From Lentisphaeraceae bacterium (GTDB taxonomy: Bacteria > Verrucomicrobiota > Lentisphaeria > Lentisphaerales > Lentisphaeraceae): a stretch of DNA of 64,000 nt. Below, in pieces: positions 25,205 to 29,415 of the stretch. The stretch's first letter is position 1. The number at the start of each line of letters is the position of its first letter. The notes under the pieces are model-generated. The model had not been told where the DNA came from and searched no databases. It saw only the letters and a list, made by a program, of their open reading frames with translations. Location: the NCBI GenBank assembly GCA_021232515.1, contig JAJPOQ010000013.1, forward strand, positions 1 to 64,000, in the 5' to 3' direction. Position numbers and translations under genes: made by a program.

Positions 25205-27073
25205 ATGGAATCCATATTAGCTTCAGTAAACTGTCCTGCAGATATAAAATCTTTAACTATAGACCAACTTCGTCAACTCTGTGATGAAATTCGCGATGAA
25301 TTAATCGAGATAACAAGCAAACACGGCGGTCACTTAGGCTCTAACCTTGGTGTCGTTGAACTAACAGTTGCGCTTCATAAAGTTTTCGATTCTCCTAAAG
25401 ACAAATTTATTTTTGATGTTAGTCACCAAGGCTACGTCCACAAGATACTAACTGGTCGTAAAGAGTATCTCCATACTCTGCGCCAAACTGGCGGGTGCAG
25501 TGGATTCCTTCAACGTGAAGAAAGTGAACATGACCACTTTGGCGCTGGACATGCAGGCACAGCGCTCTCATCTGCCTTAGGTTTTGCTGCTGCGCGAGAT
25601 GCATTAAACACAGACGATAAGATTGTCGCTGTTGTTGGAGATGGCGGACTTGGCTGTGGAGTTTCTCTCGAAGCCTTAAATAACGCTGCCGATACGACTA
25701 AGGACATTATATTTATTCTTAATGATAATAAGATGTCCATCTCCCCCAACGTTGGAGGCATGTCTAAGTACCTTAACCGCATCATAACGGATGGCCGCTA
25801 CAACCACTTCAAAAGTTCAGTTGCTGATCTAGTCAAGAAAATACCAGGTATAGGCTCATCCCTCAAAAATGGCATTAGCAAAGTTGAAGAAGCAGCAAAA
25901 GGCCTCCTCATTCCAGGAGTTATCTTTGAAGAACTCGGTTTACGCTACTTCGGACCAGTAGATGGCCACGATATAGAAGAACTCATCTCTACCTTCAAAA
26001 AGCTTAAAGAACTAAAGCAACCAGTTCTACTCCACCTTTTAACTGAAAAAGGCCATGGATTTGAAGGTGCTAAAAATGACCCTGAAAAGTGTCACGGCTT
26101 CAAAAAGAAAGAAGTCACTTCAAAAGATTCAAATGCCCTAAGCGTTACAAAACCTGCAGGTCTTACTTTTTCTAATATCTTTGGTGACGAACTATGCCAA
26201 CTTGCCAAGAAAGACGATAAAGTTGTTAGTATCACAGCTGGCATGTTATCTGGTACCGGAATGCAAAAGTTTAAAGATGCCTTCCCTGAAAAAGTATATG
26301 ATGTTGGCATTGCTGAAGAACACGGTACAATTTTCGCCGCTGGCATGGCTGGTGGTGGCCTAAAACCAATCGTTGGTATATATGCAACATTCATGCAACG
26401 CGCCATGGACTGTGTTTACCACGATATCTGCCTACAAGAACTTCCAGTCATCTTCTGTATGGATAGAGCTGGAATCGTTGAAGATGGCCCGACCCATCAT
26501 GGTATAGTCGATATAAGCTTTTGGCGCAGCCTACCAAATCTACACATACTTCAGCCGAGAGATGCAACTGAATTACGCCAAATGATGAACATGGCCCTGG
26601 ACTTCAAAGTTGCTTCGGTTATTCGCTACCCAAAAACTGACTCAAGTGATTTAGATGTAAATAGAGACGAACTCGTTCTCGGTAAATCTGAAGTTATCCG
26701 CCAAGGTAAAGACATCTGTATCTGGGCAAGTGGCAGAGAATGCGAACATGCTCTACAAGTCGCAAGTATCTTAGCGCCTAAAGGCATAGAAGTAAAAGTC
26801 GTAAATACCCGCTTCTTAGCTCCATTTGATCAGACCGCATTACTTAAAGATTCACAAGAGATGCCTGTCATCACTCTAGAAGATCACATGATAAATGGTG
26901 GATTAGCGTCGATATGCAGTGAAATCCTTACAAATAAAAAGCATAATGGCTTAGTTGCGAAAGGCTATCCAAGTGAAATTATTCCTTGGGGTAAGACCAA
27001 AGACATACGTCAACAGTACGGTCTTTTACCTGAGCAAATCGCTAGTGAAATTGAAGAGCTTTTGAAAAAATAA
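25205..27073 (+). CDS. dxs: 1-deoxy-D-xylulose-5-phosphate synthase
   Basis: Dxs condenses pyruvate and glyceraldehyde 3-phosphate, the first step of the MEP isoprenoid pathway. The 622-residue transketolase-like enzyme shows SKHGGHLGSNLGVVELTVAL, catalytic-region DVSHQGYVHKILTGR, the TPP motif GDGGLGCGVSLEALNNA to LNDNKMSISPNVG, and the pyrimidine-binding block GIAEEHGTIFAAGMA. The C-terminal domain carries VVNTRFLAPFD and TLEDHMINGG. It lies between tyrA and an HExxH membrane protein and is likely cotranscribed with both. Confidence 0.95.
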   Translation: MESILASVNCPADIKSLTIDQLRQLCDEIRDELIEITSKHGGHLGSNLGVVELTVALHKVFDSPKDKFIFDVSHQGYVHKILTGRKEYLHTLRQTGGCSGFLQREESEHDHFGAGHAGTALSSALGFAAARDALNTDDKIVAVVGDGGLGCGVSLEALNNAADTTKDIIFILNDNKMSISPNVGGMSKYLNRIITDGRYNHFKSSVADLVKKIPGIGSSLKNGISKVEEAAKGLLIPGVIFEELGLRYFGPVDGHDIEELISTFKKLKELKQPVLLHLLTEKGHGFEGAKNDPEKCHGFKKKEVTSKDSNALSVTKPAGLTFSNIFGDELCQLAKKDDKVVSITAGMLSGTGMQKFKDAFPEKVYDVGIAEEHGTIFAAGMAGGGLKPIVGIYATFMQRAMDCVYHDICLQELPVIFCMDRAGIVEDGPTHHGIVDISFWRSLPNLHILQPRDATELRQMMNMALDFKVASVIRYPKTDSSDLDVNRDELVLGKSEVIRQGKDICIWASGRECEHALQVASILAPKGIEVKVVNTRFLAPFDQTALLKDSQEMPVITLEDHMINGGLASICSEILTNKKHNGLVAKGYPSEIIPWGKTKDIRQQYGLLPEQIASEIEELLKK

Positions 27074-27082
27074 AGGATTCGC

Positions 27083-28033
27083 ATGTCAGCATTCTGCAAA
27101 GAACACGAACTAAAAAAAGCTGCAGAAAATGACCTTCCCACACTAGTAGATCTAGATAAACGTGGACTCCTAATTGGCGCAACAGAGACTTCTGAAGAGT
27201 ACGTCAACCGCCTGAAGGTTTTCCAAAAAAATCTAAGCGAAATGGAAAGTGGACTTAAAAAAGATAAAAAGTTCACTGTAGAAGATTTAACTTTCCCTGA
27301 AAGTGAGAAGATTCCCGAAAAAACATTCAATTCACCAGCCAAGATCACTTCTGAATTATACGACTTTAAAATCGATTGGGTCCCTGGCTTTTACATAACC
27401 CCTGACTTTGGAATGCTTTTTGGTGGCTGTGCTTACTCATTTGACCCAGACTTTTTCTCATTATTCATAATCCGCAATAGTTTTAAAAAGAAAAATAAGT
27501 GGCTCTTCTACGAGCGCGATGAGCTCATGTCACATGAACTTTGTCACGTCGCCAGATTTGCTTTAAAGTCAAACACCTATGAAGAAATGTTTGCTTACCA
27601 GACAAGTACATCTGGCTTCCGCAGAAAATTTGGCAGCATGATGCGCGCCGCCTGGGAAACCTACTTATTCATGGCAATTCTACTTGGTATGCTAGTAACT
27701 CAAGTTTCCTTAATCGTCTTTTATTCAAAATGGTTAGCGTCTCGCAGCCTTACAGAAAATCCAGTCCATTGGTTCTACGCAGCCCTATTCTCACTTGTGT
27801 CCTTTCTTGTACTTAGACAGAGTAGACAAAATAAACTCTATAAAAAAACACTCGAGAACTTCGAAGAAATTACCAAGAAACCCAGAGCCTTGGCTTTTAG
27901 GCTTAATGACAAGGAAATGGACTCATTTGTTAAAATGAAGAAAATCACTAAAGAGAATTTCATAGAAACACTAAACACTCATAATTGTTCGGACATACGT
28001 CTCAAAATCATTTCGGAGCGCTTTTTAAGTTAA
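27083..28033 (+). CDS. Membrane protein with HExxH zincin-like motif, unknown family
   Basis: I do not recognise this 316-residue family. A soluble N-terminal part of about 145 residues ends in a H-E-L-C-H motif at 151-155, flanked by hydrophobic residues as in zinc metallopeptidases, with E167/E168 12-13 residues later as possible third ligands. Two membrane segments follow (about 193-217 and 228-245), then a short cytosolic-type basic tail. An intramembrane-adjacent metallopeptidase is the natural inference, not an established fact. It follows dxs by nine bases, and its stop overlaps the lnt start (TAATG), so it is cotranscribed with a lipoprotein-maturation enzyme. AAAGGATTCGC gives a good ribosome site. 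Confidence 0.72.
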   Translation: MSAFCKEHELKKAAENDLPTLVDLDKRGLLIGATETSEEYVNRLKVFQKNLSEMESGLKKDKKFTVEDLTFPESEKIPEKTFNSPAKITSELYDFKIDWVPGFYITPDFGMLFGGCAYSFDPDFFSLFIIRNSFKKKNKWLFYERDELMSHELCHVARFALKSNTYEEMFAYQTSTSGFRRKFGSMMRAAWETYLFMAILLGMLVTQVSLIVFYSKWLASRSLTENPVHWFYAALFSLVSFLVLRQSRQNKLYKKTLENFEEITKKPRALAFRLNDKEMDSFVKMKKITKENFIETLNTHNCSDIRLKIISERFLS

Positions 28034-29415
28034 TGAGTACTCAAGGGCTAACAACAAAACAACTTTGGGGCTATACTGCACTTTCCTGTGCTAGCTACAT
28101 CTCCATCTCAATCTCGTCTTATTTTATTTTTTTACTGCCATTTTTCTATATTGGACTATTTAAAATAAGCGATGCAAAAAATAGTCGTATATCCTTCTAT
28201 TTAGGTCTTCTCGTTGGCTTAGCTATATCCGCATTTCATTTGCGATTTTTCTCAAATATCTTCCACTCTGCAAGCATTGCACTGTGGCTAATACTAGCTT
28301 TTTGGATTGCCCTCTCCTGCATTATCACAAATATACTCAAAAAGAAACTCTCTCCAACAAATATAGTTTGGTGCATTCCCTGCCTCTATTTTCTAATAGA
28401 CTTCTTCATGTGTGAGATGTACAAGCTTAAGTTCTCATGGCTAAATACAGGCTTCTTCACATATAAAAATGCGAATAACTTCCTTATTCAATTTACCGGA
28501 ATATATGGCTTTGGCTTAGTCATCTTCATCCTATCACTTTTAGCACTTCACTCAAAGAAAAAGAAAATCTATCTTCCCACGCTTTCACTCTTCTTAGGAG
28601 TTCTCAATATCCTTCCATCCCAAATAAAAAATCCCACTGAAGGACCAATAGTTTCTGGGATACAATTAGAGCTCCCTGATGATAAAGATGTCCTTAAAGG
28701 ACTCGAAAAGACGAAAAACAAACACCCTCAAACTGATATCTTTTTATTAAGTGAATATACGTTCCTTTACGAAGTTCCTAATGAAATTAAAGAATGGTGT
28801 AAAACAAACAAAACTTACCTAGTTTGCGGGTCGAAGATATTTACAGATTCTTCTCAAAAAGAATTTTACAACTCCGCCACAATCGTAAACCCTCAAGGTG
28901 AAGTTGAGTTCACACAAACAAAGTCTGTACCTATTCAATTCTTTGAGGATGGCATTGCTGCCACTAAACAAGAACTATGGAACTCACCATGGGGTAAATT
29001 TGGCCTAGCCATCTGCTACGACCTTAGTTATGCAGGGGTCATCGATAACCTAGTAAGCCAAGGAGCCGAAGCTCTACTCATTCCTACAATGGACGTCATA
29101 AGCTGGGGCGCTGGCCAACACTACCTACACTCTAAAGTCGCACCCGTAAAATCAGTCGAGTATAACATCCCCATCTTTAAAGTTTCTAGCTCCGGAATTT
29201 CTCAATTTGTAAATAAGGACGGACATGTGCTAGCAAAGGGAAGTTACCCCGGTCAAGGCGATATACTTTCTGCACAGCTAGAGACTTCTCAAAGTACTAG
29301 AAGACCAATCGACCGCTTTCTATTCTGGCCTATTTTTATTCTTCTCACTTTAACCATTCTCCGCACCCAGACAACAAAAAAGCCGACTAAAGAAGCCGGC
29401 TTAGAAAATTCTTAA
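28033..29415 (+). CDS. lnt: Apolipoprotein N-acyltransferase
   Basis: Lnt adds the third acyl chain to the N-terminal Cys of lipoproteins in the inner membrane. An N-terminal multi-pass region (about six helices over residues 15-200) precedes a nitrilase-fold domain. The Glu-Lys-Cys triad can be placed at LLSEYTFLYE, TQTKSVPIQFFEDG and GLAICYDLSYAG, and a final helix lies near the C-terminus. I start at 28033 (MSTQGLTTK), where the ATG overlaps the preceding stop; upstream in-frame codons within that gene are unlikely. About 460 residues is slightly short but within the family. The last codons overlap a terminator-like hairpin serving the convergent gene. Confidence 0.88.
   Translation: MSTQGLTTKQLWGYTALSCASYISISISSYFIFLLPFFYIGLFKISDAKNSRISFYLGLLVGLAISAFHLRFFSNIFHSASIALWLILAFWIALSCIITNILKKKLSPTNIVWCIPCLYFLIDFFMCEMYKLKFSWLNTGFFTYKNANNFLIQFTGIYGFGLVIFILSLLALHSKKKKIYLPTLSLFLGVLNILPSQIKNPTEGPIVSGIQLELPDDKDVLKGLEKTKNKHPQTDIFLLSEYTFLYEVPNEIKEWCKTNKTYLVCGSKIFTDSSQKEFYNSATIVNPQGEVEFTQTKSVPIQFFEDGIAATKQELWNSPWGKFGLAICYDLSYAGVIDNLVSQGAEALLIPTMDVISWGAGQHYLHSKVAPVKSVEYNIPIFKVSSSGISQFVNKDGHVLAKGSYPGQGDILSAQLETSQSTRRPIDRFLFWPIFILLTLTILRTQTTKKPTKEAGLENS
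29371..29402 (-). terminator. Terminator of the epimerase gene, embedded in lnt coding sequence
   Basis: A 9-bp stem (29380-29388 with 29394-29402, one wobble) with a 5-base loop is followed on the minus strand by TTTTTTGTTG. It lies 29 bases beyond the stop of the leftward epimerase gene but inside the final codons of lnt. Confidence 0.75.

Follow-up and report, generated by a model that had tools for sequence, protein, structure and literature searches.

Published work places 24–64 residues between the second His of the HExxH motif and the Glu ligand in known gluzincins, and gives the pattern HEXXHX(8,28)E for M60-like peptidases (PMC3267712). In the membrane metalloprotease BlaR1, H205 and E242 are separated by 36 residues, and E242 belongs to an ExxxD signature (PMC9834060); a model of the related MecR1 has a re-entrant helix between the two motifs (PMC6925264). 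SPRTN reaches its third ligand across a short gap, from His115 to His130 (PMC5128726). The motif is also found in ChlB-type HExxH oxygenases, which occur in peptide-modification gene clusters (PMC12636437). Here we describe a gene from a 64,000-nucleotide stretch of a Lentisphaeraceae genome (the window: positions 1 to 64,000 of contig JAJPOQ010000013.1), which encodes a putative membrane-anchored protein of the zincin type with an unusual arrangement of these elements.

The gene lies between two others on the same strand.

25205 to 27073, forward strand: dxs, the upstream neighbor, separated by a 9-nt gap (Pfam DXP_synthase_N, 1.8e-113)
27083 to 28033, forward strand: coding sequence of the predicted membrane-anchored zincin-like protein, 316 residues with an ATG start, defined by the open reading frame (ORF) and its translation and by homologues across the class
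28033 to 29415, forward strand: divergent Lnt-like gene, the downstream neighbor, overlapping by 1 nt (Pfam CN_hydrolase, over cut-off)

The dxs stop codon (TAA, 27071–27073) precedes the ATG of the ORF by 9 nt, and the stop codon of the ORF (TAA, 28031–28033) has one base in common with the next ATG (28033–28035), confirming the overlap with the lnt-like gene that had been noticed from the sequence alone. This tight spacing to dxs, together with the one-base overlap, makes cotranscription of the gene with its neighbors likely in this genome. Compared with a 71%-identical congener orthologue, the gene differs at 81, 47 and 183 first, second and third codon positions, respectively, over 316 codons, which at the sequence level is the pattern of purifying selection; dS in this comparison is saturated.

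The protein contains a single HExxH motif, H151-E-L-C-H155 (HELCH), followed by E167 and E168 at 12 and 13 positions past H155, so that 12 residues separate H155 from E168.

27533 to 27547, forward strand: HELCH motif, residues 151–155 in helix 145–157, with predicted zinc ligands H151 and H155 and predicted catalytic base E152; invariant in 67/67 sequences
27584 to 27586, forward strand: E168 in helix 167–172, the predicted third metal ligand; invariant in 67/67 sequences

Among 200,000 shuffles of the window protein, HExxH arose in 1,097 and HExxH-x12-E in 89. By itself the motif is uncommon but not decisive; what is decisive is its invariance in 67/67 homologous ORFs. These ORFs come from a whole-protein search that returned 71 matches, from which three same-genome duplicates and one fragment were removed. 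H151, E152, H155, E168, Y143, E147, R180, G184 and R306 show no variation across the set, at identities down to about 21%. The sequence-only reading had made its case depend on the conservation of HExxH in close homologues; examined here, the motif is kept throughout. In alignment A1, which comprises 52 of the 67 sequences, the same nine residues are invariant along with G28 and G115, and the N-terminal D25, E35 and R43 and the C-terminal R273 and E278 are nearly so. Past the motif, A1 has a single invariant residue that is acidic or His, namely E168, and we infer from this that it would be the third metal ligand. Across the 67 ORFs no His is conserved at 70% or more past residue 155, and position 172 is occupied by Tyr (56 sequences) or Cys (11 sequences), so the ExxxD signature is missing. 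A wider set of 111 sequences (161 matches minus three short ones and duplicates) retains H151, E152, H155 and E168 in 111/111 and Arg at position 306 in 107/111; many of its members were recruited by a pattern containing HExxH, and the conservation case therefore rests on the 67 ORFs.

The full-length AlphaFold model has a pLDDT of 95.3 and a pTM of 0.91. It runs from N-terminal helices through a helix at 79–93, strands at 102–104, 115–120 and 125–130, the HExxH helix at 145–157 and a helix at 167–172 that carries E168 to two long helices at 190–213 and 227–260 and finally to C-terminal helices. The ORF and the model together confirm what had been read from the letters alone, namely HExxH at position 151, Glu-Glu 12 residues on and two membrane helices next. 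We divide the protein as follows.

27083 to 27265, forward strand: N-terminal helical region, residues 1–61, with G28 invariant in A1 and D25, E35 and R43 nearly so
27266 to 27649, forward strand: zincin-like putative catalytic domain, residues 62–189, comprising a helix, strands, the HExxH helix and the Glu helix, backed by the domain model and by the VIA list, which zincins head
27650 to 27862, forward strand: helical hairpin, residues ~190–260, predicted to be transmembrane from hydropathy, charge bias and the model, with both flanks positive
27881 to 28030, forward strand: C-terminal helical region, residues 267–316, with R306 and the nearly invariant R273 and E278

A Foldseek search with the full model returned nothing at E ≤ 0.001 from the PDB or from a viral structure library (best E in the latter, 0.41). 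The helical hairpin dominated the VIA alignments of the full model (best Z 6.2), with gluzincins such as ACE and LTA4 hydrolase ranking lower (Z 4.4–4.7, r.m.s.d. 6–8), and residues 62–189 were therefore modeled separately (pLDDT 90.7, pTM 0.86). Foldseek again gave nothing at E ≤ 0.001 for the isolated domain (best E 1.9), and its list also included unrelated GTPases. The 207 chains that it ranked highest were then aligned with VIA, and the best 50 rows were retained. Abylysin came first (4jiu; Z 6.4, r.m.s.d. 3.8, 92 residues aligned), followed by 6mdw, which we take to be SPRTN (Z 5.8, r.m.s.d. 3.7, 98 aligned). BlaR1 (8exq; Z 5.6, r.m.s.d. 3.9, 107 aligned), the ChlB HExxH domain in the fifth row (8s5f; Z 5.5, r.m.s.d. 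3.7, 121 aligned) and BepA (6ait; Z 4.2, r.m.s.d. 4.5, 107 aligned) were also among them. Judged by title, 46 of the 50 rows are zincin-type, the rest being ChlB, two YbeY-type proteins and one hypothetical protein. All Z values reported here lie below 8, the level under which the tool warns of chance or of a merely common arrangement, and for this reason we regard the zincin fold (clan MA) suggested by the models as probable rather than proven. The VIA lists speak for the chains that were aligned and not against families that do not appear in them.

Hydropathy peaks in the 19-residue windows that begin at residues 195 and 226. Averaged over 52 sequences, the count of Lys plus Arg against Asp plus Glu is 3.6 to 0.3 ahead of the first hairpin helix and 4.2 to 0.5 past the second, compared with 0.3 to 0.25 in the loop between them. 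By the positive-inside rule, these flanking charges predict that the active site and both termini are cytoplasmic. No membrane or re-entrant segment lies between HExxH and the Glu, as the hairpin begins at residue 190.

The window protein stays below the cut-off of every Pfam and NCBIfam model, and none of its four sub-cut-off Pfam matches is M48, M56 or M60. For the 52 members of A1, profiles of M48, M56 and M60 are likewise missing from 25 of the 36 Pfam families matched. Among these 25, the most recurrent matches are weak and metallopeptidase-like, namely eCIS_core in 12 members, M78 in three and SprT-like in three (best E values 0.077, 0.021 and 0.036, respectively); the lowest E values, 2.4e-4 for DUF4129 and 6.4e-4 for DUF6203, concern one or two members each and are read as chance or membrane-segment matches. 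NCBIfam gave scattered weak matches to 21 families over the 52 members (best E 0.0011), and a PDB sequence search gave two chance-level matches. PADLOC had no match for the window protein, and a role in defense was set aside on that count. The impression formed from the sequence alone that this is no known family is borne out at these cut-offs, and no publication on the family was among the matches listed in our literature searches, which mostly did not cover subscription journals.

Of 98 genomes, 93, counting the one that holds the window, have a match in the whole-protein search. With a profile built from A1, 124 of 387 genomes of the phylum matched, none of them beyond the class: within Lentisphaeria, as judged by record names, 124 of the 131 genomes sampled carry the gene, versus 0 of 256 others. 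The 263 non-matching genomes comprise seven from the same class, 13 from the same phylum and 243 unlisted ones, which were taken as lying outside the class because the list is ordered by decreasing relatedness. When eight non-matching class genomes were searched permissively, just two weak traces came up. Two of these eight genomes (G039 and G047) are an estimated 95–96% complete, so the absence may be real there and the gene may be dispensable. The nearest relative, at 71% identity, is from a Lentisphaerales MAG, and strains of Lentisphaera marina, Oligosphaera ethanolica and Victivallis vadensis carry the gene. Some genomes hold a second, shorter paralogue (11 loci, L051–L061, most of ~280 residues, from genomes of two families); nine paralogues included in A1 are 21–24% identical to the window protein and keep HExxH and E168. 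In two loci (L006, from genome G005, and L135) the copy is split over two open frames, as in pseudogenes or through sequencing errors.

A motif-pattern scan found 288 stretches, 153 of which encode relatives. Among the best 80 of these 153, three are labeled Kiritimatiellota, four "Verrucomicrobia", one Paceibacterota and some "uncultured bacterium". The gene-bearing loci labeled Paceibacterota (L095) and Kiritimatiellota (L076) suggest misnamed MAGs of the same class. Restriction to the class holds within the sampled phylum; beyond the phylum, the best 80 of the 153 relatives leave it not proven. None of 600 pattern stretches from viral contigs was confirmed as a relative, nor was any relative confirmed in plasmids or phages, and a mobile origin was rejected on that basis.

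We compared gene order in 97 deduplicated loci, the window not included. Upstream sequence of 1,200 bases or more is available for 90 of them, and downstream sequence of 1,500 bases or more for 84. To name neighbors within 700 nt we used 15 query proteins that represent 13 chosen genes, and a neighbor left unnamed by these queries is not the same as no neighbor. Upstream we found PSP1 in 24 of the 90 loci, dxs in four, a rhomboid gene on the opposite strand in two and pheT in two, with no query matched in 58; downstream we found Nif3 in 31 of the 84, a PcrA/UvrD-type helicase in eight and lnt in one, with no query matched in 44. Where both neighbors could be named (18 loci), PSP1 and Nif3 occurred together in 15. 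The four dxs loci all fall within the window's own family, and the single lnt locus is that of a congener (L071). Five loci (L124, L126, L128, L132 and L140) share the order PSP1, zincin-like gene, Nif3, a small lipoprotein-like gene with no Pfam match, rplU and purC. A conserved partner was rejected, as the neighbors vary from PSP1 and Nif3 to helicase, rhomboid and pheT. Read from gene order, the context appears to be one of varied housekeeping genes, indicating neither a substrate nor a single functional partner.

The overlap with the lnt-like gene had led the sequence-only reading to link the protein to lipoprotein maturation. A protease of that pathway working with Lnt would fit the tight packing of dxs, the zincin-like gene and the Lnt-like gene in the window and in the congener, but lnt downstream and dxs upstream are rare among the other loci (1/84 and 4/90) compared with Nif3 (31/84) and PSP1 (24/90). 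Moreover, the genome has a better Lnt match than the adjoining gene. The product of that gene spans the whole of TIGR00546 but reaches 64.6 bits (56.2 when the genome was searched), short of the cut-off of 132.9. Below that cut-off the model also matches other nitrilase-type proteins (of 14 control genomes, 13 have a match at E ≤ 0.01 and seven have one over the cut-off); a canonical Lnt scoring 263.4 bits is encoded on another contig of the same genome (G000:C69:25780-27024). The Lnt-like neighbor may be an additional acyltransferase that uses a different substrate. Lnt works on the outer side of the inner membrane, and the active site of the zincin-like protein is predicted to be cytoplasmic, which also speaks against the link. 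On the strength of the synteny and of the second, canonical Lnt we dropped the lipoprotein role, which we now consider extremely unlikely.

We favor, with a probability of roughly two in three, a zincin anchored in the inner membrane, acting as a metallopeptidase with a single zinc. Its soluble catalytic domain (residues 62–189) would lie on the cytoplasmic side, tethered by the hairpin that follows the active site. In such an enzyme H151, H155 and E168 would bind zinc, E152 would activate water, and the cut, made beside the membrane, would fall in a membrane protein's cytoplasmic loop or terminus or else in a membrane-bound regulator. The membrane zinc protease proposed from the sequence alone survives to this extent, as a protein that appears zinc-protease-like and membrane-anchored, with conserved HExxH and Glu, and without the part in lipoprotein maturation.

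HExxH oxygenases are a real rival to this assignment. The protein could be a zincin-fold metal enzyme that is not a peptidase, for instance an iron/alpha-ketoglutarate oxygenase like the ChlB HExxH domain, and the 121 residues aligned to 8s5f are the widest coverage among VIA rows with Z of at least 5. That Z is tied with those of true peptidases in the same list, and none of the 21 NCBIfam families matched by the 52 members is of this kind, in a library that presumably includes an HExxH oxygenase model. One HExxH protein with a metallopeptidase annotation is reported to have turned out to be such an oxygenase (PMC12636437); all considered, we hold this reading unlikely for the window protein. 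Similarly small odds go to a zincin relic, a membrane scaffold or regulator that kept the metal site and lost catalysis. The lack of a known substrate or activity and the paralogues in some genomes would suit such a relic, but E152 varies no more than the His ligands do, even in the paralogues at 21–24% identity, which counts against it because a structural metal site would not need E152. Finally, the protein might be a distant member of M48 or M56 (HtpX, Ste24, BlaR1) that has diverged beyond the profiles, having the same membrane side and a similar core (Z 5.6 for BlaR1 8exq, 4.2 for BepA 6ait). We judge this very unlikely, given the 12-residue gap, the missing ExxxD and the position of the hairpin after the Glu, and since neither profile occurs among 25 of the 36 Pfam families matched by the 52 members.

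For the membrane-anchored metallopeptidase, the likeliest role by analogy with HtpX or BlaR1 would be housekeeping quality control of membrane proteins or their regulated processing. Its presence in 124 of 131 class genomes argues for a general role. M48 peptidases are present in 80 of 98 genomes, the window's genome counted, which points to an additional activity and led us to reject a simple replacement of HtpX. The window's genome also encodes a PrsW-type membrane protease (G000:C155:5931-6464; PF13367, 76 bits, over cut-off). Members of Lentisphaeria inhabit marine waters, sediments and guts, and to our knowledge little of their cell biology has been worked out. We tentatively propose, at somewhat less than even odds, that the gene represents an undescribed zincin family with an HExxH-x12-E motif, a membrane hairpin after the site and a cytosol-facing domain, which would have arisen at the base of Lentisphaeria, been retained nearly class-wide and nowhere else in the sampled phylum, and would serve a general membrane proteolysis task specific to the class. 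A class-restricted, widely kept and unnamed gene with an intact catalytic motif is a candidate for a lineage-specific cell process. It is also a candidate sequence marker for the class; clade signatures are treated in PMC3444138.

Compared with described systems, the putative catalytic core is closest by VIA score to the minigluzincins (abylysin 4jiu, jannalysin and selecase), which have a minimal zincin core of like size, with 92 residues aligned of the 105-residue abylysin chain. Their chains of 104–108 residues leave no room for a hairpin and terminal helical regions, and they show no sequence match. The SprT/SPRTN/Wss1 DNA–protein crosslink proteases come next in VIA and likewise have a short gap to the third ligand, but in SPRTN this ligand is a His 15 positions past the second His, whereas the family described here has a Glu as predicted ligand and no such conserved His. 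BlaR1/MecR1 (M56) and HtpX/Ste24 (M48) are also membrane metalloproteases with a cytoplasm-facing HExxH...E site; the window protein differs from them in the Glu gap, the ExxxD signature and the placement of membrane segments, and is without a sensor domain. Its 12-residue gap falls outside the 24–64 residues of gluzincins and inside the loose 8–28 pattern of M60-like peptidases, so that on sequence the gap is unusual rather than unprecedented. M60-like/enhancin peptidases are described as extracellular, whereas the window protein is predicted to face the cytosol and matches no M60 profile. The ChlB-type HExxH alpha-ketoglutarate oxygenases carry their motif on a comparable fold. The zincin-type motif itself is known; on our best reading, what is new here is an unnamed, class-wide, membrane-anchored zincin-like family, in which a short gap to the presumed third ligand and an anchor placed after the site make a layout unlike that of the membrane zincins compared, although the gap alone fits M60-like peptidases.
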